Source of the DNA: a virus
DNA: 21,391 nt
Reading direction: 5' to 3' (one strand)
IMG/VR virus record: IMGVR_UViG_3300015245_000233
Coordinates: 1-21,391 of that record
Shown: one piece after another, positions 10,374 to 21,119 of the stretch
How positions within the stretch are numbered: position 1 is the first letter of the stretch
Layout of the letters: every line of letters starts with the position of its first letter
Translations under genes and position numbers: made by a program
Notes under the pieces: model-generated
Told to the model about the DNA's origin: nothing
What the model saw: the letters and a program-made list of their open reading frames with translations, nothing else
The model's database searches: none

Positions 10374-10721
10374 CTAAAACCCCGGGCCCGAGTCCTGCTT
10401 CATTGTAACCCCGGTCGAGCGCGGACGCTGCCGGAGGTCTGGAGGATGTCCCTGATATAGCTGATCGAGAGCGTTCTGTCCGCCGATCGGCGTGTATCCC
10501 GAGGACGCTGGAGCGTACGGAGCCATCGCGGGAGCAGGAGCCATTGGCTGCATCAACTGCACCTGAGGATCCAATGCTTGATGAGCCTGATCCATCATCT
10601 CACCCTTAACGCGAAGCTCACCGGGAAGACCTTCGGTCTGCTGCGCACCAGACATATACTGCGACGCGACGCGCTCGCCGTAGTTCTTCAGTCGTGAGAG
10701 CCACTCGTGGAGATCAGCCAT
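10374..10721 (-). CDS. First gene of virion operon, hypothetical Pro/Gln-rich protein
   Basis: From MADLHEWLSRLKNYGERVAS the product is 115 residues. It has a short helical N-terminus followed by a Met/Pro/Ala/Gln-rich, probably disordered segment (LMQPMAPAPAMAPYAPASSG) and a polar tail. The start is uncertain. An in-frame ATG at 10817 would give 147 residues but adds a basic, unnatural-looking stretch and would lie only about 9 bases after the predicted transcription start. Neither start has a strong Shine-Dalgarno sequence. No known domain is recognised. Its place at the head of the packaging genes suggests an assembly-related role. Confidence 0.55.
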   Translation of the reverse strand: MADLHEWLSRLKNYGERVASQYMSGAQQTEGLPGELRVKGEMMDQAHQALDPQVQLMQPMAPAPAMAPYAPASSGYTPIGGQNALDQLYQGHPPDLRQRPRSTGVTMKQDSGPGF

Positions 10722-10832: not shown

Positions 10833-10861
10833 ATAGTAGCTGGATTATGACAAATTGTCAA
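10833..10861 (-). promoter_or_regulatory. Sigma-70-type promoter for virion operon
   Basis: On the minus strand TTGACA (10861-10856) is followed after exactly 17 bases by TACTAT (10838-10833). The -35 is a perfect consensus and the -10 matches four of six. Transcription would begin near 10826 and read into the packaging and virion genes. A palindrome overlaps the -35, so repression is likely. Confidence 0.6.
10848..10860. promoter_or_regulatory. Palindromic operator over the virion-operon -35
   Basis: TGACAAATTGTCA is a palindrome with six-base arms around one central base. It covers most of the -35 hexamer of the minus-strand promoter, where a dimeric repressor would block RNA polymerase. 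The binding protein is unknown. Confidence 0.45.
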
Positions 10862-11093: not shown

Positions 11094-11169
11094 GATGGGA
11101 TGGCCCGTCTAGGACTGGTGGTGCGCTAGGCGTGATGGGAGCACCAGTCGGTAAACGGGCCGTCCCATC
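11094..11169. repeat. Large inverted repeat built from two copies of a dispersed 19-bp motif
   Basis: The left arm has GATGGGA (11094-11100), GGCCCGT (11102-11108) and ACTGGTG (11114-11120). The right arm has CACCAGT (11142-11148), ACGGGCC (11155-11161) and TCCCATC (11163-11169). The three seven-base blocks pair perfectly, with small internal bulges and a 21-base loop. The inner two blocks of each arm recur at 16009-16027 and 17939-17957. The right end overlaps the stop of the 21-residue micro-gene. There is no U-run on either strand. Confidence 0.7.
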
Positions 11170-11233
11170 AGCGCTGAACCGGCAGCACTGCGATAGCTAT
11201 GACGAGACAGACGACCGCGAAGGTGAGTAACAT
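11168..11233 (-). CDS. 21-residue membrane micro-protein
   Basis: The frame starts MLLTFAVVCLVIAIAVLPVQ, almost entirely one hydrophobic helix with a short basic end. CAGGAG lies 6 bases before the ATG, the same strong site used by larger genes here, and this is the main reason to believe it. The stop falls at the edge of the large hairpin. Function is unknown. Single-helix phage peptides can act on host membranes or transporters, but nothing specific is shown. It is the third of three successive small genes on this strand. Confidence 0.5.
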   Translation of the reverse strand: MLLTFAVVCLVIAIAVLPVQR

Positions 11234-11270
11234 ATTGACTCCTGGGGCCAGAGTCATCGGTGGCGCTGGA

Positions 11271-11366
11271 TCATCCAATCAATATACGGAGCGCTAGGCC
11301 GAACACGGCGCCCGAGATGAACACGACGACGAATGGTATATAGATACGCATCAATGCTAGACGCAT
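11271..11366 (-). CDS. 31-residue membrane micro-protein
   Basis: The product starts MRLALMRIYIPFVVVFISGA and is dominated by one transmembrane helix (about 8-29) with positive residues at the N-terminus. GGAGGGACG stands directly before the ATG, giving a good ribosome site. The gene starts inside the end of the upstream 54-residue gene (10-base overlap), which argues for coupled translation. No family is recognised. Together with the 21-residue neighbour it suggests a small set of membrane-acting early peptides. Confidence 0.55.
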   Translation of the reverse strand: MRLALMRIYIPFVVVFISGAVFGLALRILIG

Positions 11367-11521
11367 CGTCCCTCCGTCTCGGCTTCCTGGTCAAGCTCAC
11401 GCGCCAACTCGTTAGCGTTAACTAACTGACCGCGCCATTCATCGAGTGACCACTCGTTGGCGATGCTGACTTCGTTCAACGCCAGTGCTGCGTCTGCGAT
11501 ACGTGAATCGATGTTGTTCAT
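11357..11521 (-). CDS. Small acidic helical protein, possibly leaderless
   Basis: The 54-residue product (MNNIDSRIADAALALNEVSI at the start) is a helical, acidic protein with two Trp residues near the middle (NEWSLDEWRG). It has no membrane helix or metal motif. No Shine-Dalgarno sequence precedes the ATG. Instead a promoter with TTGACA, 17 bases and CATATT ends 7 bases before the A of the start codon, so the mRNA may begin at the ATG itself. It is the first of three overlapping or closely spaced micro-genes reading toward the virion operon. Confidence 0.6.
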   Translation of the reverse strand: MNNIDSRIADAALALNEVSIANEWSLDEWRGQLVNANELARELDQEAETEGRCV

Positions 11522-11527
11522 AATTAC

Positions 11528-11556
11528 AATATGACATTCAGTCTAAAGTTTGTCAA
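11528..11556 (-). promoter_or_regulatory. Minus-strand promoter of micro-gene operon
   Basis: TTGACA (11556-11551) is followed after 17 bases by CATATT (11533-11528), a perfect -35 and a four-of-six -10. An inverted repeat CTAAAG/CTTTAG (11543-11548 and 11562-11567) brackets the -35 and may be an operator. The predicted start point is at or next to the ATG at 11521. Confidence 0.55.
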
Positions 11557-11652
11557 TTAATCTTTAGTGTGGTTACCAAATGCGTCTCAGTCAACTTGTA
11601 ACCGTTCAGTTTCATTACCAGTTCTACGCATCTTGATGCACGTCGAGTGCCA

Positions 11653-11689
11653 AACTAACCGTTCAATCTAGGTTCAATGGTTAGTTCAA
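11653..11689. promoter_or_regulatory. Divergent-region operator with inverted and direct repeats
   Basis: AACTAACC (11653-11660) and GGTTAGTT (11679-11686) form an inverted repeat. Inside and beside it GTTCAA occurs three times, at 11661, 11672 and 11684. These copies are spaced 11 and 12 bases apart, about one helical turn. The site lies between divergent promoters and about 40-70 bases upstream of the plus-strand one. It is a plausible binding site for a phage regulator; the protein is unknown. Confidence 0.45.
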
Positions 11690-11725
11690 CGAGATGTAAA
11701 ACGTTCGTTTACATTCGCTTTTCTC

Positions 11726-11754
11726 TTGACTACCGATGACTACCAAGCTAGGAT
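11726..11754 (+). promoter_or_regulatory. Plus-strand promoter of the small-gene run
   Basis: TTGACT (11726-11731), a 17-base spacer and TAGGAT (11749-11754) form a good sigma-70-type promoter. The region 11727-11746 is a tandem ten-base repeat, TGACTACCGA then TGACTACCAA, which includes most of the -35. Related GACTAC words accompany the promoters at 16430, 16760 and 19265. Confidence 0.6.
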
Positions 11755-11810
11755 ACTGACAGTTGACGTGCAATTTGGTGACACTAACGACTGACACGGG
11801 AGGCGGGGCG

Positions 11811-11996
11811 ATGCGCGAAAGCTATCAGGACAGATTATCGGAACTATGGCGGATATCTCGTACGGCATTGAGTGAGACTGTACCGTCTCGGTTTGACCGT
11901 TTGCAGTACGTTGTTCGTGAGTACATGCGTGAGGAGCCGACATCGAAGCGTAAGCAGGTCTATCTTGATATCGATTCGTTAACGAGAGGATATTAA
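11811..11996 (+). CDS. Small hypothetical protein, first gene of plus-strand operon
   Basis: The product is 61 residues (MRESYQDRLSELWRISRTAL at the start), charged and helical, rich in Arg and Glu, with no membrane segment and no cysteines. The ATG at 11811 is preceded by GGGAGG at 7 bases. A longer reading from 11763 would begin almost at the predicted transcription start and is not preferred. It is the first gene after the promoter at 11726 and ends one base before the next ATG. No domain is recognised. Position suggests an early-expressed phage protein. Confidence 0.6.
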   Translation: MRESYQDRLSELWRISRTALSETVPSRFDRLQYVVREYMREEPTSKRKQVYLDIDSLTRGY

Positions 11997-11997
11997 A

Positions 11998-12183
11998 ATG
12001 AGTAATTTGGAGCACATTGCTTTTTCATTTGTTCATGGCGGTTTTGATCCAGACAACGTTGGCGGTTGTTCATGCGACGATTGCTCACAACTACGGGAAG
12101 AAATAGCTGCAATTCGAGAGCGTGAAGGTTCGCGGGTTTTTGAATGGCCGTCGGAGGAAGGTAATCTTGACCATCAAACATAA
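11998..12183 (+). CDS. Small protein with Cys knuckle
   Basis: This 61-residue protein has a cysteine cluster near residue 24 (GGCSCDDCSQL) followed by a charged helix (REEIAAIREREG). The Cys-x-Cys-x2-Cys pattern could bind zinc, but a fourth ligand is not obvious unless a His supplies it. A GAGAGGAT ribosome site stands about 6 bases before the ATG. The stretch is AT-richer than neighbouring genes. Its end overlaps the next gene by 17 bases. Function is unknown. Confidence 0.6.
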   Translation: MSNLEHIAFSFVHGGFDPDNVGGCSCDDCSQLREEIAAIREREGSRVFEWPSEEGNLDHQT

Positions 12184-12457
12184 AGAACCGTGTATTTGTG
12201 CTTGGATTAAAGCACAAATTGAACAGGTTCCGCCGGAACATCGTACTGCATTAGAAGATACTATTTTAGCCAAATTTGAAGAAAACGATTTAACAGTCGC
12301 CGATTTGTTTGAGTTACAAGCTAATGTTGACGGACGGCTGTGTAATGATATTTGGCAGGGGGCGGATATTCTTATCTGTGTATTACCATTTGACCATCGT
12401 CAAGCCCATAAATCAATTGATGGACAGGTATGGTATACACGTCCGGAGTTACGTTAA
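12167..12457 (+). CDS. Hypothetical protein, 96 residues, TTG start
   Basis: The TTG at 12167 is chosen because a strong GGAGGAAGG lies 5 bases upstream. The alternative ATG at 12122 has no such site and would lie deep in the previous gene. The protein starts (M)TIKHKEPCICAWIKAQIEQ, has a Cys-x-Cys near residue 9, a helical middle (ALEDTILAKFEENDLTVADL) and a hydrophobic C-terminal half. No known domain is recognised. The DNA is AT-rich, suggesting a separate origin from the later genes. The stop overlaps the next ATG by TAATG. Confidence 0.55.
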   Translation: MTIKHKEPCICAWIKAQIEQVPPEHRTALEDTILAKFEENDLTVADLFELQANVDGRLCNDIWQGADILICVLPFDHRQAHKSIDGQVWYTRPELR

Positions 12458-12651
12458 TGGACATCCTCACACAGATAGCAACGAAGCTAGGCGAGCTCAT
12501 GATCGAAGCCGAGAGCTTGCTCATGGATATTCGAGTCCTGCAGTTCAACGCTGGGCGCGATTGGGCGTCTCAGTTCGTTGCTATGAGCGCGTGTGGTGTG
12601 TTGGTCGGTACGGCGGTAGGTTGGATGCTGATTGTTCATGTATTACGCTAA
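12457..12651 (+). CDS. Small single-helix membrane protein
   Basis: The 64-residue product starts MDILTQIATKLGELMIEAES, an amphipathic helical region, and ends in a clear transmembrane helix (about 41-62: VAMSACGVLVGTAVGWMLIV). The TAATG overlap with the preceding gene shows the start, with GGAG about 9 bases upstream. No signal peptide cleavage site is seen, so a tail-anchored topology is likely. The function is unknown; size and topology would suit a holin-like or membrane-associated phage protein, but no lysin gene is nearby. Confidence 0.6.
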   Translation: MDILTQIATKLGELMIEAESLLMDIRVLQFNAGRDWASQFVAMSACGVLVGTAVGWMLIVHVLR

Positions 12652-12691
12652 ACAATTCGTGTCACTAGGCACGTAAAATACTGGGGGAACT

Positions 12692-12928
12692 ATGAAAGCG
12701 ATTGTTACTAAGTATCACGGTCCAACGAACTTCAAAGGTAGCAGGATTACAGCGTCAGATCAAGACGGGAATCGCGTTACGATCTCTTATCCGTATGAAT
12801 TGAGCGGGGAAGATTGCCATCGCAAAGCTGCACAAGCGTTATGTGACAAGATGCACTGGACAGGGGAATTGGTTGGTGGATCATTGAAGCATGGGTACGT
12901 CTTTGTATTCGGAGGGAACAATGTCTAA
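12692..12928 (+). CDS. Conserved small phage/plasmid protein (MKAIVTKYHGPTN type)
   Basis: The 78-residue product starts MKAIVTKYHGPTNFKGSRIT and ends in LVGGSLKHGYVFVFGG. This matches a recurrent short family in phages and plasmids with the same opening, an ASDxDGNxxTI middle and a GGxLxxGYVFVF end. The family's biochemical role is not established. GGGGG lies about 6 bases before the ATG. The following gene overlaps by 8 bases. No membrane helix or metal site is seen. Confidence 0.75.
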   Translation: MKAIVTKYHGPTNFKGSRITASDQDGNRVTISYPYELSGEDCHRKAAQALCDKMHWTGELVGGSLKHGYVFVFGGNNV

Positions 12929-13094
12929 CGATACATGCAAACGATGTGGACGCGTGATCCAGGACGGGGAGCTCGTCACTGGATTCGACTTCTCTAGCGA
13001 TAGCGGAGAGCACATTACTTGTCCTCGGTGGCCGACCGATGCTGATATCTCGCAGTGTGTCATTGCTAGCTTGCAGGAGGACTCAGGCGTATGA
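12921..13094 (+). CDS. Small zinc-knuckle protein
   Basis: This 57-residue protein opens MSNDTCKRCGRVIQDGELVT and has a second half with HITCPRWPTDADIS. Cys6, Cys9, a His near 35 and a Cys near 38 could form one zinc site. The start is supported by GGAGGG 5 bases before the ATG and by an 8-base overlap with the previous gene. It ends in an ATGA overlap with a ribbon-helix-helix gene, so the pair are probably co-expressed. Whether it binds DNA or RNA is unknown. Confidence 0.65.
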   Translation: MSNDTCKRCGRVIQDGELVTGFDFSSDSGEHITCPRWPTDADISQCVIASLQEDSGV

Positions 13095-13279
13095 TCACTC
13101 GTAGCTATGCTAAAACGAACGTTGATTCTGTGCATATGTCAATCTCAGTGTCGCTCCCCGAGGCGCTTTATGATTGGATCAGGGAGTACTCTAAGGAATG
13201 CGACGTGAGTATGTCGGCGTTGATCAAAGCATTGATTATCGCTCATAAGCAGGATGTGACGAATCAGGAGGAACTATGA
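13091..13279 (+). CDS. Ribbon-helix-helix (CopG/Arc-type) regulator
   Basis: The 62-residue product carries a compact ribbon-helix-helix pattern: a beta strand HMSISVSLPEALYDWIREYS (about 15-34), then a second helix SMSALIKALIIAHKQD. These proteins dimerise, insert the strand pair into the major groove and usually act as repressors. The ATG is in an ATGA overlap with the upstream gene and GGAGG is 10 bases away. An internal ATG at 13136 would give just the core fold. It is one of two such genes in the window and a candidate for binding the palindromes at 10848 or 11543-11567. Confidence 0.75.
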   Translation: MITRSYAKTNVDSVHMSISVSLPEALYDWIREYSKECDVSMSALIKALIIAHKQDVTNQEEL

Positions 13280-13449
13280 AATACCTTGTGATTCGGTACG
13301 ATAATGAGCGTGGGGCGATCATTGAGACGGTTGTCGGTCGCATGAGTGATGCTGATCTCGCTTTTCGGCTCCAGGAGTTACTCGGAGAGATGTTCCCCGC
13401 GAGCGATTTCGCTGTGATCGCTAAGACTGACTATGAAGGAGCGGCTTAA
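13276..13449 (+). CDS. Small hypothetical protein, 57 residues
   Basis: The product starts MKYLVIRYDNERGAIIETVV and has a beta-alpha-beta feel: a short strand, an acidic loop, a helix (DADLAFRLQELLGEMF) and a second strand (DFAVIAKT). The ATG overlaps the stop of the ribbon-helix-helix gene (ATGA) with GGAGGA just upstream. It ends in TAATG with the next gene. The small alternating fold resembles compact phage modulators, but no family can be named. Confidence 0.65.
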   Translation: MKYLVIRYDNERGAIIETVVGRMSDADLAFRLQELLGEMFPASDFAVIAKTDYEGAA

Positions 13450-13706
13450 TGACAACTAAATTGGTGGGACATACACCGGGGGCATTACGAGCTGCACAAA
13501 AATTAGTCTCGCGTGTTTATGCCAATAACAATCAAATAGACATTGAAGTATTCGCTGGGATCATCGACCGCGAGACAGCCGCTTCTGAGTTACTGGAAGC
13601 GTTAGAAATGATGATCGAATGTCTAAAGTATTCGGGTATCTCTGTAGAGGATTCGATCATTATGACCGCTGCGTTATCAGCTATCCGGAAAGCGAGGGGG
13701 GAATAA
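13449..13706 (+). CDS. Small helical hypothetical protein, 85 residues
   Basis: The product starts MTTKLVGHTPGALRAAQKLV and is mostly helical, with a SELLEALEMMIECLKYSG helix in the middle and an Arg/Lys-rich end (SAIRKARGE). Similar small phage proteins combine an N-terminal PGALRAA segment with an ELLEAL helix, but their role is not known. TAATG overlaps mark both start and stop, and GGAG is 8-9 bases before the ATG. The base composition is AT-richer than the genes that follow. Confidence 0.65.
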   Translation: MTTKLVGHTPGALRAAQKLVSRVYANNNQIDIEVFAGIIDRETAASELLEALEMMIECLKYSGISVEDSIIMTAALSAIRKARGE

Positions 13707-13957
13707 TGACTAACGGATTCGAGCAATGGATGCGAGAATGGTGCGAGCGCCAGGGCTGGCCGTTCCAGCCCGAGATGGCGGCACGAGATATACGTACACA
13801 ATGGACCGAGATCGAACGAGTCTCGCCTTTAGCTGATAGCGATACGCGGTTAAAGGCCCACGTGAAATCCGCACAGGAATATTGGGCGAGCGTTGAAGGC
13901 TCAGACGAATGGGAGCTAGCGCAGCTTGACCGGGCATGCGAAGATGAGACTCGTTAA
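13706..13957 (+). CDS. Small hypothetical protein, 83 residues
   Basis: The product opens MTNGFEQWMREWCERQGWPF and is rich in Trp, Glu and Arg, with two charged helices and no membrane or metal motif beyond scattered cysteines. The ATG is in a TAATG overlap with the preceding gene, and GGGGG is upstream. A longer reading from 13619 would lie inside the previous gene and is rejected. The end overlaps the next small gene by 14 bases. No family is recognised. Confidence 0.6.
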   Translation: MTNGFEQWMREWCERQGWPFQPEMAARDIRTQWTEIERVSPLADSDTRLKAHVKSAQEYWASVEGSDEWELAQLDRACEDETR

Positions 13958-14105
13958 CTGGCTCCTCCGATGTCGTCACTGGCGCACGCCGAAGACTTGG
14001 CCGCGACGAGTCAATCGAATCAGCAATAAGCATGTAATTATTTGTCTCGCTTGTGGTGCCGCGTTAGCGTATACTTGGGAAGCTCTTGGCCGGGAGCACA
14101 AATAG
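13944..14105 (+). CDS. Small zinc-ribbon-like protein
   Basis: The 53-residue product starts MRLVNWLLRCRHWRTPKTWP and continues with HVIICLACGAALAYTWEALG. Cys10 and His12 plus Cys34 and Cys37 could build a split zinc site. Short phage proteins with an N-terminal Cys/His pair and a CLxCGxxLxYxW end are common and of unknown role. The ATG lies inside the end of the previous gene, with only a weak ribosome site. It ends 20 bases before the beta-helix gene. Confidence 0.6.
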   Translation: MRLVNWLLRCRHWRTPKTWPRRVNRISNKHVIICLACGAALAYTWEALGREHK

Positions 14106-14125
14106 TTCGCACAGGAGTTTCATCG

Positions 14126-15715
14126 ATGAATAGACGTGATCGTGATTCCCTACTGATGCTAATCGCAGTTCTAGCGTTGCTCATTGGCGCTATGGTCCAG
14201 ACCTCATGGTCCCAGACTGACGGGCCCGCTGCATTACCTCAGCGCACTCCGAACACGGCGATCGTTTCGCCGAATGCCCCGAAGACGGTGTCCGTTACGG
14301 ATAATCTCCAGACGATGATCTCTGGCGCAGTGTGCGGCGATACGTTCTTGTTAGACCCAGCGCTCGTGTACCCGGGCGCCCTAACGGTACCTACATTAGC
14401 TTGTGATGCACAGCATGGGATCACGATTCGGTCATCTGCTACTGTGCTCGAAGACGCGAAGCATCGGGTAATTATCGGGCAGCAGTTTCCCAAGATCGTT
14501 GTCAAAGGAAGCCAGCAGGTCACAGGCGGGGCATTTGTCTTATGGTATGGCGTCGAGTTCACTCGTGTCGCCGGTGGCACTGTGTACAATCTAATAGACT
14601 TAACTAGTTCGGCGCACGATCAAGTGTTCGATCACGTCTATGTTCACGGGACGCCAACGGATGAGACGGTTCGAGGGATATTTCTACAGGGCGCGACGAA
14701 CATTGTAGTCCAGAACAGTTATTTCAGCGATTTCCACTGCCGCGCACTCGGCACTTGCGGCGATGCGCAAGCGATCTCAGGCGGAGTATCAGACGTTGCT
14801 GGCTCGGGGAATTATCTCTTCCAGAATAATTACTTGGAGGCAGCGGGCGAGAACGTGATGATCGGCGGCGGGTACGATACTATGTCGCCGTCGGACGTGA
14901 CGATTCAATATAACGATATTGTTAAGCCTGCATCGTGGAACCCTGCGGACCCATCGTTCGGTGGTCAGCACTGGATTGCGAAGAATCTTGTAGAGTTCAA
15001 GAACTGTGTTCGTTGCCTCGTCCAGGGGAACCGGATGATCGGGTCATGGGGCGGGTATACGCAGTTGGGATGGGCGATCCTTGTCGGGGTAAAGAACCAA
15101 GGGAGCGCGACCGGAGGGCTCTGTCCACTCTGCGTCGTCAGCGACATTACTGTGAGGAACAACTGGGTCAGTCGCACGGGGCAAGCGATGCAGATTATGA
15201 TCGCCCCTGCTGGTGGTGGGTATCAGGCGAAAGAGCAGGAGCGGATCTCGGTTCACGATAACGTCTTTGACCAACTCCAATACCCAGAATGCTACCAATG
15301 TGGGCAATGGCTGATCCAGCTGAGCAGTGATTCAGCAGCACCATCGGTGATGCACGATGTCACGATAGCTAATAATACGTTCTCCTTGGCTGGTTGGGAC
15401 CGGGACGGCGGGTTCATGACTATCGGTGGGCCCGTGGGAGCGAAGATGTATAATATTCAGATCACTGGGAACGTGTTCCCTGGAGGGAAGTATCCGCTGT
15501 ATTCTACTGGCGGTGGCGCGGCTACTAATTGCTTCGCAGCTGGAACGCTCAATTACGCGGGAGCGTTAGCCGGATGCTGGGCTACGTCAGCGTTCACCGG
15601 TAATGTGGTGCTCAATAATGGGAACGTTAGTAAAATTGTGTGGCCCATGGGAAATACGGTTGTCAATTCGGGAGCGAACGTAGTATCTCTGAAGACGAGT
15701 CTCGCGACTCGATAA
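14126..15715 (+). CDS. Secreted right-handed beta-helix protein (pectate lyase-like fold)
   Basis: From the ATG at 14126 (AGGAG 8 bases upstream) the product has 529 residues. The start MNRRDRDSLLMLIAVLALLI is a positively charged end and hydrophobic core of a Sec signal, or of an uncleaved anchor, followed by SWSQTDG where cleavage is plausible. The mature part repeats Asn/Val-rich coils such as FDHVYVHGT, VVQNSYFSDF, LFQNNYLEAAGENVMIGGG, VQGNRMIGS, ISVHDNVFDQ and VTIANNTF, diagnostic of a right-handed parallel beta-helix. NNYLEAAGEN belongs to a recurrent beta-helix family. Several CxxC pairs (CVRC, CPLC, CYQC) could form disulphides. Such folds act as polysaccharide lyases, epimerases or binding proteins; catalytic residues cannot be assigned. 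It is a large cargo gene among tiny phage genes, and a signal peptide argues against a simple tailspike. Confidence 0.8.
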   Translation: MNRRDRDSLLMLIAVLALLIGAMVQTSWSQTDGPAALPQRTPNTAIVSPNAPKTVSVTDNLQTMISGAVCGDTFLLDPALVYPGALTVPTLACDAQHGITIRSSATVLEDAKHRVIIGQQFPKIVVKGSQQVTGGAFVLWYGVEFTRVAGGTVYNLIDLTSSAHDQVFDHVYVHGTPTDETVRGIFLQGATNIVVQNSYFSDFHCRALGTCGDAQAISGGVSDVAGSGNYLFQNNYLEAAGENVMIGGGYDTMSPSDVTIQYNDIVKPASWNPADPSFGGQHWIAKNLVEFKNCVRCLVQGNRMIGSWGGYTQLGWAILVGVKNQGSATGGLCPLCVVSDITVRNNWVSRTGQAMQIMIAPAGGGYQAKEQERISVHDNVFDQLQYPECYQCGQWLIQLSSDSAAPSVMHDVTIANNTFSLAGWDRDGGFMTIGGPVGAKMYNIQITGNVFPGGKYPLYSTGGGAATNCFAAGTLNYAGALAGCWATSAFTGNVVLNNGNVSKIVWPMGNTVVNSGANVVSLKTSLATR

Positions 15716-15724
15716 TTACTGAGC

Positions 15725-15880
15725 ATGATCGATCCAGAGACGTTACACAATTTGTTACACGGGCTATATACATGCTACTGGTGTGGCTCGATTGCAGACA
15801 AGGATTGCATTGCAGAGCATGTTGATAAGTGTTTGGAACAGATCCATTGGCTGCATGAGCATGTGGAGAAGGCGAAATGA
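15725..15880 (+). CDS. Small Cys/His protein, 51 residues
   Basis: The product opens MIDPETLHNLLHGLYTCYWC and continues with a CIAEHVDKC segment and a helix full of His and Glu (HWLHEHVEKAK). CYWC plus HVDKC looks like a compact zinc finger (Cys, Cys, His, Cys). The stop overlaps the next ATG (ATGA). No strong ribosome site is visible, but it lies only 9 bases after the beta-helix stop, so coupling is possible. Function is unknown. Confidence 0.55.
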   Translation: MIDPETLHNLLHGLYTCYWCGSIADKDCIAEHVDKCLEQIHWLHEHVEKAK

Positions 15881-16008
15881 AACGGGCAAATTTCTACTTT
15901 AGGATCGTAGCGATGGTCATTATGGGAACCTGTATCTATTATAATCAACGAGTTGACGCTGCGTTGATAGGGCTGCTAGCTCTGCTGGCGACGGTCCCCT
16001 GTGGCTAG
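15877..16008 (+). CDS. Small membrane protein, 43 residues
   Basis: The product starts MKRANFYFRIVAMVIMGTCI and has two short hydrophobic helices (about 8-22 and 30-41) separated by NQRVDA, ending in PCG. The ATGA overlap with the previous gene fixes the start, and GGAGAAGG is just upstream. Size and two-helix topology fit a holin-like or other small phage membrane protein, but no lysis partner is next to it. The end overlaps the next gene by 8 bases. Confidence 0.55.
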   Translation: MKRANFYFRIVAMVIMGTCIYYNQRVDAALIGLLALLATVPCG

Positions 16009-16186
16009 CACCAGTCTTAAACGGGCCGTCTCGTTCCCGATTCGAGAACACTTGTTCTCCGAAAGGGAACAGGAGCTTATGCTTCGTTTGATGGACCGGG
16101 CAGAAGAGTACGATACAGGATGGGCTGATCATTGGTGGCGTGAGCTCAAGTCTATACGCAGGAAACTCTATGGCATCGAAGACTGA
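16001..16186 (+). CDS. Small hypothetical protein, GTG start
   Basis: The 61-residue product (SFPIREHLFSEREQELMLRL after a short lead) is helical and rich in Glu, Arg and Trp (ADHWWRELKSIRRKL). The GTG at 16001 overlaps the previous gene by 8 bases; its ribosome site is weak. Notably its codons 3-10 are written over a copy of the dispersed 19-bp motif (16009-16027), so the first residues (STSLKRAV) are dictated partly by that DNA site. No family is recognised. Confidence 0.5.
   Translation: MASTSLKRAVSFPIREHLFSEREQELMLRLMDRAEEYDTGWADHWWRELKSIRRKLYGIED
16009..16027 (-). repeat. Copy of dispersed 19-bp motif
   Basis: CACCAGTCTTAAACGGGCC is the reverse complement of the motif seen at 11102-11120 with two differences in the central bases. 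It lies inside the start of the gene at 16001. The flanks are unrelated to the other copies beyond a shared AG before and GTC after the 11142 copy. Confidence 0.6.
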
Positions 16187-16346
16187 AGAGATCCAATTAC
16201 TCATAGATTCCGGTTGGGTCCACGCGGGCGACACACGGGATGGCGGCTGGCAATGGCGTGATCCCCGGAACAAGGGTGCTTGGTACCGATTAGAGGATGC
16301 CGTGTCTCTTGAGAAGTCTCGTAGGATGGCCCGTAGGACGCATTAG
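16170..16346 (+). CDS. Small basic hypothetical protein, 58 residues
   Basis: From the ATG at 16170 (CAGGAAA about 7 bases upstream) the product reads MASKTEEIQLLIDSGWVHAG and ends SLEKSRRMARRTH. The middle is rich in Trp, Gly and Asp (GGWQWRDPRNKGAWYRLEDA), giving a small beta-rich module followed by a basic helix. The WxxRDPxxxxxYxxxxA pattern resembles small phage proteins with a WKDPxT-type motif. The gene overlaps the previous one by 17 bases and is followed 21 bases later by a strong terminator, so it closes the operon. Confidence 0.6.
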   Translation: MASKTEEIQLLIDSGWVHAGDTRDGGWQWRDPRNKGAWYRLEDAVSLEKSRRMARRTH

Positions 16347-16367
16347 AGGCCCCAGGATCGATCATCA

Positions 16368-16397
16368 GGTCCCCCTAGGTACTCGGGGACCCTTTTT
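16368..16397 (+). terminator. Rho-independent terminator of first plus-strand operon
   Basis: GGTCCCC (16368-16374) pairs perfectly with GGGGACC (16385-16391) across a ten-base loop and is followed by C and five T residues (16393-16397). It ends the run that starts at 11811. Confidence 0.85.
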
Positions 16398-16429
16398 ATT
16401 GCCAATCCGTCTATTTCCGCACAATTCTC

Positions 16430-16458
16430 TTGACTACATTTACCTACTGTTGCATACT
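16430..16458 (+). promoter_or_regulatory. Promoter for second ribbon-helix-helix gene
   Basis: TTGACT (16430-16435), a 17-base spacer and CATACT (16453-16458) form a sigma-70-type promoter just after the terminator. The spacer starts ACATTTACCTACTG, again carrying ACTAC-like words. Confidence 0.55.
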
Positions 16459-16517
16459 GAGACGGTACAGTGGGAACGGTACTTTGGCTTGATTCTCATT
16501 GTAGTAGTCGGGGCCCA

Positions 16518-16712
16518 ATGGTTAAGAAACGTACCGGGGATAAGCGATTACCTATTAAGATCTCAGTTGATGCATACGAAGCGTGTCGGGGGTACTCAGT
16601 GATCACAGGGATACCCATTGTTAAAGTAATTAGCGAAGCGGTCGCTGATTGGATGAATACCACAGGCGTCAGTCGGATCGAATCATTACAGCGTAAGTCA
16701 TTGAATAATTAG
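16518..16712 (+). CDS. Ribbon-helix-helix regulator, second copy
   Basis: From the ATG at 16518 the product has 64 residues: a basic start (MVKKRTGDKRLPIKISVDAY), a strand (PIKISV), a first helix (DAYEACRGYSVITG) and a second helix (IVKVISEAVADWMNTTG). This is the Arc/CopG ribbon-helix-helix outline. The protein probably binds DNA as a dimer and may control its own promoter at 16430 or the related one at 16760. GGGG lies about 4 bases upstream. A GTG at 16470 in frame would add 16 residues but is a weaker start. It differs clearly in sequence from the one at 13091. Confidence 0.7.
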   Translation: MVKKRTGDKRLPIKISVDAYEACRGYSVITGIPIVKVISEAVADWMNTTGVSRIESLQRKSLNN

Positions 16713-16759
16713 CCTGCGGACCTCCCCCAAAGTTTTCCACAGGTACCTGAAAATAGTAC

Positions 16760-16788
16760 TTGACTACCGGAGTAGCCAGTGGTAGTCT
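16760..16788 (+). promoter_or_regulatory. Promoter and operator of DUF3102-like gene
   Basis: TTGACT (16760-16765) is followed after 17 bases by TAGTCT (16783-16788), a weak -10. The inverted words ACTACC (16764-16769) and GGTAGT (16781-16786) lie between and over the promoter elements, forming a likely operator. A near-match to a DnaA box (TTTTCCACA) lies about 20 bases upstream. Confidence 0.5.
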
Positions 16789-16828
16789 GTCTCCAGTGGG
16801 TTACCAAGGTAACCTCATAGGAGAAAAA

Positions 16829-17650
16829 ATGGCATATAAGCGTAGCACTAATCGAGGTAACCGACCGGCTGTACTTGAATCGCCCTCCCCGGAGTTCCTG
16901 CCCGGTGTGTCTTTGGCGGAGCTAGAGCGAGCACCCGAGGCTCAGCCGAAGCTCGTTGAAGAGAAATGGTGGGAGGAGTTGACGCTCGCGGAGCAATCGA
17001 TTCTCCAGCCCATTGGCAATGGCCTCGCAACAGCAATGCTCGTCCAGGGTTATTCGCGCCTAGCTATCGGGGCTCATCTTGTTAAGGCGCAAGCGATACT
17101 AGAGCCCCATTCTCTCTTTGGTAAGTTCTTACGGTTGTTCCGGTTCACCCCGAGGACAGCGTACCGGTATATCCAGAGATACCAGAACGCCTCAGCGTCG
17201 CTCCCGGAGACGATCCTTCGCGCTGCGATGGCCCGAGGGATCGATCTCTCTGGTGAACGTGAGGAAGCTCCTCTAGGCAAATATACCCAAGTAGTTAAAG
17301 CCCTTCCCCCGCCCGAGGATCCTACGCCACTGGCAGCTAATGCTTGGATCGATCGGGTGATCGATGCCCAGAAGGACGCCCGAGACGAAGCTGTTGCGCC
17401 AGGACCCGAGATGTCTCTTCCTGTGCCGCAAGATCCTGAGACATTACTGAAAGAGTGTTACCGATTCATCTCTACCCGGTACCGTAAGCTACCAATCAAT
17501 TCGCGTCAGCGGTCCCGATGGGTCCATCAGCTCGCCGGGATGCTGCTCAACGAACTCGGGGTCAGCAACGCCCAGAGTATCGCTCCGATCGCCGTACCGG
17601 ACGATTACAGGGTCCAGCGCGGACGACCCAGAGAGGCGGCAGCTGCATGA
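16829..17650 (+). CDS. DUF3102-like protein, probable DNA-binding
   Basis: The 273-residue product starts MAYKRSTNRGNRPAVLESPS at an ATG with AGGAG 5 bases upstream. A longer reading from 16760 would start inside the promoter. After a disordered lead of about 55 residues comes a helical region with AIGAHLVKAQAILEPHSLFG and KFLRLFRFTPRTAYRYIQRY (about 85-125). This resembles DUF3102, where a kept IGxxLxxAKxxLxHGxF block is followed by FxxSxRTAxxYM. A helix-turn-helix reading of FTPRTAYRYIQRY is likely. The rest is a Pro-rich linker and a second helical domain with basic residues. DUF3102-type proteins occur in phages and plasmids near replication or partition functions. The stop overlaps the next ATG (ATGA). 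Confidence 0.65.
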   Translation: MAYKRSTNRGNRPAVLESPSPEFLPGVSLAELERAPEAQPKLVEEKWWEELTLAEQSILQPIGNGLATAMLVQGYSRLAIGAHLVKAQAILEPHSLFGKFLRLFRFTPRTAYRYIQRYQNASASLPETILRAAMARGIDLSGEREEAPLGKYTQVVKALPPPEDPTPLAANAWIDRVIDAQKDARDEAVAPGPEMSLPVPQDPETLLKECYRFISTRYRKLPINSRQRSRWVHQLAGMLLNELGVSNAQSIAPIAVPDDYRVQRGRPREAAAA

Positions 17651-17859
17651 GTACCCAGGGGAACTCTGGTCGAGCCCCGATGCGCCGTGCGGACGATCAA
17701 CGAGCAACGCATGACACTGAGTTGCTCATGACCGCGCGGAAGTACGAGGAGCACGAAGCTTGGTGCCCCGAGTGCCGTGAGTCAGCTTGGAAGATGTGTT
17801 CCGAAGGCATGGACCTGATGCAAGCGGTTTATATGTGCCTTAGGTCGAGCAAGTTCTGA
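17647..17859 (+). CDS. Small Cys-containing partner of DUF3102-like protein
   Basis: The 70-residue product starts in an ATGA overlap (MSTQGNSGRAPMRRADDQRA). Residues 36-70 hold HEAWCPECRESAWKMCSEGM and a CLRSSKF end. The His plus CPEC plus later Cys residues look like a small zinc-binding helical hairpin, a pattern frequent in phage proteins (HxxxCxxCR followed by CxEGxxL). Translation is probably coupled to the upstream gene, and a terminator follows. Its role is unknown. Confidence 0.65.
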   Translation: MSTQGNSGRAPMRRADDQRATHDTELLMTARKYEEHEAWCPECRESAWKMCSEGMDLMQAVYMCLRSSKF

Positions 17860-17888
17860 GTTTCCTCACCGATTGATCACTGATCACT

Positions 17889-17915
17889 GGGGCGTCGCTC
17901 TGGCGCCCCGTTTTT
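17889..17915 (+). terminator. Rho-independent terminator
   Basis: GGGGCG (17889-17894) pairs with CGCCCC (17904-17909) across a nine-base loop and is followed by G and five T residues (17911-17915). It closes the unit that begins at 16829. Confidence 0.8.
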
Positions 17916-17938
17916 CTCTCAGATGAGACGTGAGCAAC

Positions 17939-17957
17939 GGCCCGTCTATGACTGGTG
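17939..17957 (+). repeat. Copy of dispersed 19-bp motif
   Basis: GGCCCGTCTATGACTGGTG differs from the copy at 11102-11120 at one base only. It stands alone, not in a hairpin, between a terminator and the repeat cluster at 18001. Confidence 0.65.
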
Positions 17958-18000
17958 TAGAATCAACGCGTTACGGAGCGTCTACCTTGTGGGCCAAAAG

Positions 18001-18226
18001 AGCAGGAGAATGGACGATAACTCAATGATTATAATAGAGATAAATTCTCCTCCACCCTTTCTCCTGCTCCCTTTGTCCAGTAGATTCAATCCTCTTGAGA
18101 AGAAGTTAGATTAGGTATGTATATGTATTGTCTTATAGATACGGAGACTTCTCCTGTTGGGCAGAAACAGCAGGAGGAGAAGTTATCTTGAATGGAATGA
18201 GTAGGATAGGATCTACTTCTCCTGCT
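18001..18226. repeat. AGCAGGAGAA iteron cluster, candidate origin
   Basis: AGCAGGAGAA occurs exactly at 18001-18010 (plus), 18059-18068 (minus) and 18217-18226 (minus). Variants lie at 18149-18158 (minus, one change), 18169-18181 (plus, a GGA insertion) and a partial TTCTCCTCC at 18045. The copies at 18149 and 18169 face each other as an inverted pair. AT-rich DNA is interspersed. The cluster ends 19 bases from the stop of a RepA-like ATPase. Such iterons often mark replication origins or copy-control sites. Confidence 0.55.
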
Positions 18227-18244
18227 ATTGTACCCCACACGGCA

Positions 18245-19126
18245 CTAGTTGACGCTATCAGGCTTCTTGCAATACTTCCCACGACCGACTTTTTCGATCT
18301 TCCCTCGCGCTACAGCCGAATCGATCTCGTTATATATCCTGGATCCGCTGAGTCCACATTGACTCATTTCTTCCATACCGAAGATTTCGCCTTCTGCGAT
18401 CGTCTTGAGCCATTGCCAGAACTTCGGCTGCTTCACGATCCTATCGACTTCGACGAGCCGACCATCTTTGAAGTCCAATGTAAAAGAAAATTTCTTATCG
18501 TTACGTGGAAGGATCATGAGCTCTCGGATCGATGAATCTGTGTCCGCACTCTCTTCTTCAATAATTACGACAGTAGACGAGTACCCGGCCCATGCACCGC
18601 AGCCAGCGATACGAGCTCTCGGCTCTTTGTATCGATCTCTTTCTTTTGTTTTCGCTGCGTGAAGGACGCCAATAATCGTTACGCCGTATCGTTTACAGAA
18701 CGCTTGGAGTTGGCGTAACCAGCGGCCTACAATACGTTGATCGTTAATTTTACCATCAGGAGTCTGTGAAGCGATGCCTTCGACGATGTACAATTTAGTT
18801 TCAGGATTAGCTTTATGCAATTTCTCAAGCATCATCAGAAGAGGGAGATCGAAGTCTTTTTCGATCGGCGATACGAAATTATATGTGTTCGGGTCGATCT
18901 TTAATCGATCGCAAGTATCAATGAAATCGTCCGTATCTCGGTCATATGACAAATAGACAAATGGAACGGGGTGAGATGGGAATCCGTAGATCGGCTTCTC
19001 CTGCCGCCAATCCTCGATCATTTGCATGAGCCAAGTAGTCTTACCGGCACCAGAGGCGCCGCCAATCAAATGAACACGTTGGCCGGGAAAAATAGTATCG
19101 ACGATGGGCGTAGGACGATTTGACAA
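18245..19126 (-). CDS. RepA/RadA-like AAA ATPase (RecA fold)
   Basis: The 293-residue protein has a RecA-type core with Walker A GGASGAGKTT at about 22-31, a YLSYDRDTDD segment near 58-67, a Walker B-like LYIVEG near 112-117 and a GVLHAAK segment (His156) followed by GCGAWAGYSSTVVIIE. That order matches hexameric RepA/RadA-like ATPases (AAA_25 type), which unwind or load on DNA. The usual acidic Walker B residue D is replaced by E in IVEG. Residues 250-290 (MEEMSQCGLSGSRIYNEIDS and VGRGKYCKK) look like a winged helix. The start is TTG with AGAGGA 5 bases upstream; no better ATG is present. It lies alone on the minus strand, facing the plus-strand unit, with an iteron cluster at its 3' side. 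A role in phage replication is likely. Confidence 0.8.
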   Translation of the reverse strand: MSNRPTPIVDTIFPGQRVHLIGGASGAGKTTWLMQMIEDWRQEKPIYGFPSHPVPFVYLSYDRDTDDFIDTCDRLKIDPNTYNFVSPIEKDFDLPLLMMLEKLHKANPETKLYIVEGIASQTPDGKINDQRIVGRWLRQLQAFCKRYGVTIIGVLHAAKTKERDRYKEPRARIAGCGAWAGYSSTVVIIEEESADTDSSIRELMILPRNDKKFSFTLDFKDGRLVEVDRIVKQPKFWQWLKTIAEGEIFGMEEMSQCGLSGSRIYNEIDSAVARGKIEKVGRGKYCKKPDSVN

Positions 19127-20224: not shown

Positions 20225-20554
20225 ATGACCGAAGCGAAGCGGGGGAGTGCGGCGGAGTTACAGAGTGCTGCGAATGAATTGCTGCGAGAGCTGAACGCTA
20301 AAGTGTTCGGCGATCACATCGACATTGTCAAGTTGCCTGAAGCTGTGGGTATGTGTGAAGACTTCGCCAAGGATTACGCCCTAAGCGTTCAGCCCCGGTG
20401 TGATAGATGGGCTGAGGGCTGGCAGCGTGGCGTGGAAGATGTGGCTGACCTGTGTAGCGATTGGGATATGCCGGATAGGTTGATTTTACAGATTCAGCGG
20501 CTAAAGCTACCGTCCCCAGCCCACGGCCCGAACCCGGAGAAGGGAACACGATGA
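20225..20554 (+). CDS. Hypothetical protein with KRGSAAE N-terminus
   Basis: The product starts MTEAKRGSAAELQSAANELL and is 109 residues, helical and acidic, with DYALSVQPRCDRWAEGWQRG in the middle. The ATG at 20225 is chosen because GAAGG lies 7 bases upstream and because the paralogous gene at 20733 starts with the same KRGSAAE phrase at that distance. An ATG at 20186 in frame, with GGGGAGA upstream, would add 13 residues and is a real alternative. The DNA around KRGSAAE is nearly identical in both genes. The end overlaps the next gene in an ATGA. Function is unknown. Confidence 0.6.
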   Translation: MTEAKRGSAAELQSAANELLRELNAKVFGDHIDIVKLPEAVGMCEDFAKDYALSVQPRCDRWAEGWQRGVEDVADLCSDWDMPDRLILQIQRLKLPSPAHGPNPEKGTR

Positions 20555-20736: not shown

Positions 20737-21119
20737 GTAGCGAAGTGAAGCGGGGGAGTGCGGCAGAGCAGGCATTCGAAGAGTGGCTAGGGACGGAGAC
20801 TTGCGAAGTTCATTGGGACGAATCCGCCGAGAAGAATGCTAGATATGGCTGGCAAGCTGGAATCGCCTACGCCCTGAGCGTCCCACCTCGGTGGATCGCC
20901 GTGAGCGAGAGGTTGCCGGAGCTTTCTGTGTATGGCGCTCCGCAAATGGTATTGATGGCAGTCGTTGGCAGAGAACTACCCGAGATGGGATGGAAATTGG
21001 CCGACGAGTGCAAGTGGCAGTCGGTTGAAACGGAGCCGTGCGACATGCCGATTTATTTCGACATGGATCAGATTACGCATTGGATGCCCCTGCCTCAATC
21101 ACCTAAAGGTGCTAAGTGA
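20733..21119 (+). CDS. DUF551-containing protein with KRGSAAE N-terminus
   Basis: This 128-residue product has two parts. Residues 1-50 begin MSSEVKRGSAAEQAFEEWLG and include GIAYALSVPPRW, matching the protein at 20225. Residues 50-125 form a DUF551 domain: WIAVSERLPE at the start and ITHWMPLPQSP at the end are its hallmark phrases. DUF551 is common in phages and their hosts, often fused to other small modules, and its function is not known. ATGA and GTGA overlaps tie it to both neighbours. The N-terminal module appears to have been duplicated within the operon. Confidence 0.8.
   Translation: MSSEVKRGSAAEQAFEEWLGTETCEVHWDESAEKNARYGWQAGIAYALSVPPRWIAVSERLPELSVYGAPQMVLMAVVGRELPEMGWKLADECKWQSVETEPCDMPIYFDMDQITHWMPLPQSPKGAK

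Follow-up and report, generated by a model that had tools for sequence, protein, structure and literature searches.

Several dispersed short repeats have been described in phage genomes. Stoperators of cluster A mycobacteriophages (L5, TipsytheTRex) are 13-mers present in more than 20 copies, whose orientation follows transcription, and their repressor binds through two domains, which contact two parts of the site (PMC9283540). Among the repeats reported from Microbacterium phages, the EC motif is asymmetric, 18 bp long and present in 12 copies, all in the same orientation and 21-30 bp before start codons, while the EI intergenic repeats number five; the function of these repeats is unknown (PMC7302621). 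SAS/ESAS elements of cluster K mycobacteriophages are tied to translation starts, and the spacer between their facing repeats is mostly 4-13 bp long (PMC3203893). Finally, the 17-bp palindromic repeats of cluster O (Corndog) form a symmetric dyad and occur in more than 30 copies (PMC4351075). The comparable repeats in these papers all come from cultured actinobacteriophages, and several are without a known binder.

The element considered here belongs to an uncultured phage group. The window, i.e. the whole stretch of DNA analysed, is the entire IMG/VR record of 21,391 bases, which is classed as linear and is thus probably a fragment.

Sequence and constraint of the repeated motif

The initial annotation had reported a 19-bp motif in four dispersed copies. 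Its positions and mismatches were reproduced here, and not a single match to GGCCCGTCTAGGACTGGTG at up to three mismatches arose in 100 dinucleotide shuffles, which sets the chance expectation at none. Copy B (11102-11120, plus strand; GGCCCGTCTAGGACTGGTG, spacer G) and copy A (11142-11161, minus strand; GGCCCGTTTACCGACTGGTG, spacer CC, one base longer) face each other as left and right halves of a pair, 21 bp apart. Copies C (16009-16027, minus strand; GGCCCGTTTAAGACTGGTG, spacer A) and D (17939-17957, plus strand; GGCCCGTCTATGACTGGTG, spacer T) are isolated and deviate from GGCCCGTCTAGGACTGGTG at two positions and one position, respectively. A general repeat search identified this motif as the only family in the window with at least three copies at up to two mismatches over 17 nt. 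A degenerate fifth copy, suspected at 16325-16340, was rejected: it consists of just the 7-nt half-box GGCCCGT, which occurs nine times in the window, and it lies inside the coding ORF 16170-16346.

The element is best written as AYGGCCCGTYTA-N(1-2)-GACTGGTG, 19-20 nt long with four copies in 21 kb, and alignment of the copies gives A-Y-GGCCCGT-Y-TA-N(1-2)-GACTGGTG. Both arms are identical in all four copies, and the changes between copies are confined to a single Y position and to the spacer, which is different each time (G, CC, A, T) and changes once in length. The box ACGGCCCGT is a near-dyad (ACGG-C-CCGT) and is joined to GACTGGTG by YTA plus one or two free bases. Except in the facing pair, flanks are unrelated beyond ~21 nt: the 30-nt left and right flanks of unlinked copies are near random (5-14 identities out of 30), and a common left arm is encountered in the facing pair only. 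Constrained arms, a free spacer and sharp borders argue for a two-box recognition site. Recent duplication would instead have left evenly spread changes and common flanks. The pattern is that of a bipartite recognition site and does not match a recent duplication, a promoter, a gene or a family of stem-loops.

Placement in the window and the facing pair

Copies B and A, together with additional GATGGGA/TCCCATC arms, form an inverted repeat of 76 nt (11094-11169). The large hairpin announced in the initial annotation was confirmed by folding, with energies of -48.1 (plus strand) and -42.6 kcal/mol (minus strand); no other 80-nt window of the record folds more stably, and the 106-nt stretch around it reached z-scores of -7.1 and -7.8. 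Since the two arms differ in their centre, a fold-back artefact of assembly is unlikely. On the minus strand, the inverted repeat begins at the TGA (11170-11168) of a micro-ORF (11168-11233, minus strand) which encodes a hydrophobic peptide of 21 residues behind a good Shine-Dalgarno sequence (AGGAGT) and is the last of the minus-strand micro-gene run; the late promoter at 10861 follows ~230 nt further in the same direction. No T-run follows the repeat on either strand, and it is absent from the predicted terminators; a standard intrinsic terminator (GC stem followed by a T-run) was therefore rejected. Neither Rfam covariance models nor the ARAGORN tRNA search yielded a match. In REP/BIME repeats every unit is itself a stem-loop. 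The isolated copies C and D display seven out of nine complementary positions within 60 nt, as do ~39 % of random regions, so that neither forms a stem beyond chance and membership in such a family was dismissed. Since single copies lack a stem of their own, a linear site is the more natural reading of the element.

Copy C lies immediately 3' of the stop codon (16006-16008) of ORF 15879-16008. It had been placed at the end of the first plus-strand operon; it actually lies within that operon, being followed by two further plus-strand ORFs (16079-16186 and 16170-16346) and then by a terminator-like repeat at ~16371-16397. Copy D is situated 28 nt past a terminator stem (17888-17910) and ~40 nt before a TTCTCCTGCT-rich region. 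The proposal that copies mark module borders thus held for the facing pair, at the stop of the last micro-ORF, and for copy D, between terminator and iteron-like region, and failed for copy C. Wholly non-coding 19-mer positions make up 9.6 % of the window according to a hand-made gene list (P ~0.096 per locus), and all three independent loci are non-coding (P ~0.001), with a caveat for 16009: copy C would be coding only if ORF 16001-16186 started at its GTG instead of ATG 16079, a choice that codon scores leave undecided.

Orientation varied with respect to transcription. Copy A is oriented with the minus-strand micro-operon and copy B against it, copy C against the plus-strand operon, and copy D with that operon, beyond its terminator. 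The nearest start downstream of copy C is ATG 16079, at 51 nt, and copies A, B and D are located at 3' ends. A separate inverted repeat, GTTCCCGATTCGAGAACA / TGTTCTCCGAAAGGGAAC, occupies positions 16033-16070 between copy C and this ATG. None of the copies overlaps a promoter-like site predicted in the window, and a sigma-70 promoter (-35 and -10 hexamers with a 16-18 spacer) was discarded as an identity for the element.

The promoter-like site of the late operon (10833-10861, minus strand; TTGACA-17-TACTAT) contains the inner dyad TGACAATTTGTCA and is conserved in the related record L015. Its form TTGACANATTGTCATA, with the inner TGAC...GTCA dyad, was found in the window at 10833-10861 and 11528-11556 (both minus strand) and in L015 at 611, with several further occurrences in G008 (L013/L016-L018), a relative of 58.6 kb; it is probably an operator-promoter that this phage group shares. 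Further promoter-like sites on the plus strand (11726, 16430, 16760 and 19265), three of which begin with TTGACTAC and all but one of which lie near GACTAC, GTAGTC or similar steps, suggest a second operator set. Two genes with KRGSAAE peptides carry at their 5' ends a direct repeat of 28 nt (93 %; 20230-20257 and 20741-20768), likely a gene-start duplication.

The candidate DNA binders among the window proteins include an Arc/CopG-like ribbon-helix-helix protein (13091-13279, plus strand); a small protein without family match (16518-16712); a protein of 273 aa with a weak HTH-like segment (phrog_1733; 16829-17650, plus strand), whose AlphaFold model (pLDDT 44.5) is too low in confidence for use; and an AAA_25/RepA-type helicase (18245-19126, minus strand) with a C-terminal AbiEi_4-like winged helix. 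Among the proteins scanned from this fragmentary record, none matched a repressor with HTH and stoperator domain in Pfam or PHROGs. Between copy D and the helicase gene, and adjoining both, TTCTCCTGCT/AGCAGGAGAA repeats are clustered on either strand (17990-18242); this cluster is likely a replication origin.

Distribution among relatives and sequence collections

Relatives gathered by terminase and portal searches displayed 46-82 % protein identity, apart from two remoter terminase matches at 31 %. Copies in related phages, which the initial annotation had proposed as a check, were encountered in none of ten related virus records, L015 included, at up to three mismatches. Absence from relatives had been named in that annotation among the grounds for refutation, and the element is accordingly not conserved in the family. 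The copies do not, however, lie strewn through coding sequence, so that this absence reads as lineage specificity and not as chance. As far as the examined records go, the motif is specific to this lineage.

L015 was the sole relative found to span the same gap between micro-genes and late promoter. Its positions 1-195 match the minus-strand micro-genes in order and character (judged by eye), and positions 875-1156 match the gene at 10374-10721. Its gap (~414 nt, against 398 nt in the window) did not align with that of the window (score 19, shuffle mean 18.8); it contains no hairpin comparable to 11094-11169, and within the gap both sequences have only the promoter TTGACANATTGTCATA in common. 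A histidine-phosphatase (phosphoglycerate-mutase-like) domain protein in the structural operon (1902-2789) is conserved in several relatives.

The strict pattern matched twice among 2.9 million viral contigs, both times in coding sequence and by chance. The relaxed pattern was found there in 56 stretches, each with a single match and nearly all in long open frames, and no contig carried several copies. In 85,000 prokaryotic genomes, seven stretches displayed a single match each, all within open frames. These searches may pass over near-identical records. No relatives of the DNA-binding candidate or the helicase were detected in the viral contigs or in the phage collection, and none of the beta-helix protein in the viral contigs. 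An automatic scan of the relatives for analogous intergenic repeats uncovered one weak case, in G008; its negatives carry little weight, as spurious small ORFs led it to mask the sites of the window itself.

Candidate functions and relation to known repeats

The tentatively preferred reading, to which we give somewhat less than an even chance, is that the four copies are binding sites of one sequence-specific protein, most likely phage-encoded, at the ends of transcription units. Observed are the four copies, the pattern of constraint within them, where they lie and their confinement to one lineage; binding by a protein, the phage origin of that protein and its action on transcription are inferred. 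The putative protein would recognise the two boxes ACGGCCCGT and GACTGGTG across YTA and one or two free bases; bound at the end of a transcription unit or just past a stop codon, it would obstruct transcription as a roadblock or silence it, and at the facing pair this block would be stronger and would work in both directions, separating the micro-gene run from the late operon. The reading draws support from the non-coding location of all three loci, from the lack of any other dispersed repeat family in the record, from the small DNA-binding candidates encoded there and from comparable regulatory or repeated sites documented in phages. Against it stand an orientation independent of transcription, the presence of four copies only and the lack of overlap with promoters; moreover, no binder was identified among the window proteins and no relative retains the site. 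A change in spacer length is also unusual for a single rigid DNA-binding protein. A more specific version is rather doubtful: in it, the facing pair of a phage-specific bipartite site would bar transcription or replication in both directions where the early micro-genes give way to the late operon, and an as yet undescribed two-domain protein that tolerates a spacing change of 1-2 bp would read the site.

Its rivals rank as follows: first a replication or maintenance element, then an action of the hairpin as RNA, then a relic repeat. In bacterial Ter sites a bound protein arrests forks in a polar manner and facing sites trap them, while centromere sites of the N15 type are dispersed. Initiator, partition or polar fork-barrier sites of this kind, with copy D at the origin and the pair as a bidirectional trap, would account for the asymmetry of the sites, their occurrence in both orientations with two of them facing, and the position of copy D, which is ~40 nt away from the TTCTCCTGCT cluster next to the gene of the RepA-type helicase; as with the motif, no relative examined was found to have the replication protein. 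This is nonetheless unlikely, as three of the four copies are 2-7 kb away from the origin, the iterons differ in sequence from the motif, and the scanned proteins included no recognisable ParA/ParB or Tus-like product. Somewhat less probable again is an action at the RNA level, with the 76-nt hairpin as 3'-end stabiliser, RNase III site or attenuator and the single copies as targets or relics. The highly stable fold (z of -7 to -8), its precise abutment on the stop of the final micro-ORF and the prolongation of its arms past the motif by GATGGGA/TCCCATC speak for it; the missing T-run and Rfam match, the lack of a comparable stem at copies C and D and the absence of such a hairpin from the equivalent place in L015 speak against it.

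That the copies are functionless relics, left by a small repeat that was mobile or became duplicated and spread by insertion or inverted duplication, appears improbable. Lineage restriction speaks for it, and the facing pair has extended flanks in common, as inverted duplication would leave them, but the changes are limited to the spacer and one Y position and spare the arms, copies C and D have neither common flanks nor target-site duplications or terminal repeats, and the gap in L015 is not shorter by the length of an insert. As to the functions guessed initially, a binding site fits the anatomy best and a recombination site is unsupported. Site-specific recombination or module exchange is indeed very improbable: copies do lie near the ends of gene blocks, yet none of the scanned window proteins was recognisable as a recombinase, there is no dyad around a core of fixed length, the spacer varies in length, and the search returned neither rearranged relatives nor any relative with copies for comparison. 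A tyrosine-recombinase core site, in which inverted arms flank a core of 6-8 bp of constant length, was rejected, GGCCCGT and GACTGGTG not being inverted repeats and their spacer being variable.

Read as a regulator-binding site, the element resembles stoperators in being an asymmetric, near-invariant short site in small intergenic gaps, and its working principle may be alike; in contrast to them, it measures 19-20 bp, occurs four times in 21 kb in mixed orientation and has a spacer of variable length. Membership among stoperators was rejected, orientation being unrelated to transcription. It resembles the EC and EI motifs in length, asymmetry, low copy number and location in small intergenic regions, but is mixed in orientation and not associated with starts as EC is. 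Like SAS/ESAS, some of which are facing imperfect inverted repeats of 17 bp with variable spacer, it is conserved and dispersed; its facing copies are, however, 21 bp apart, single copies exist, and none lies immediately upstream of a translation start, which excludes membership. With the repeats of cluster O it shares two invariant arms, a short variable centre and dispersal, whereas its arms are unrelated in sequence. The element is thus a new example of a loose and fairly ordinary kind of phage feature, to which it adds, from an uncultured group, a clear two-box constraint and a paired form; by itself it leaves the general view unchanged. Taken by analogy, it is best read as a lineage-specific regulator-binding site analogous to stoperators, SAS/ESAS and the Microbacterium motifs, and a member of none of them.
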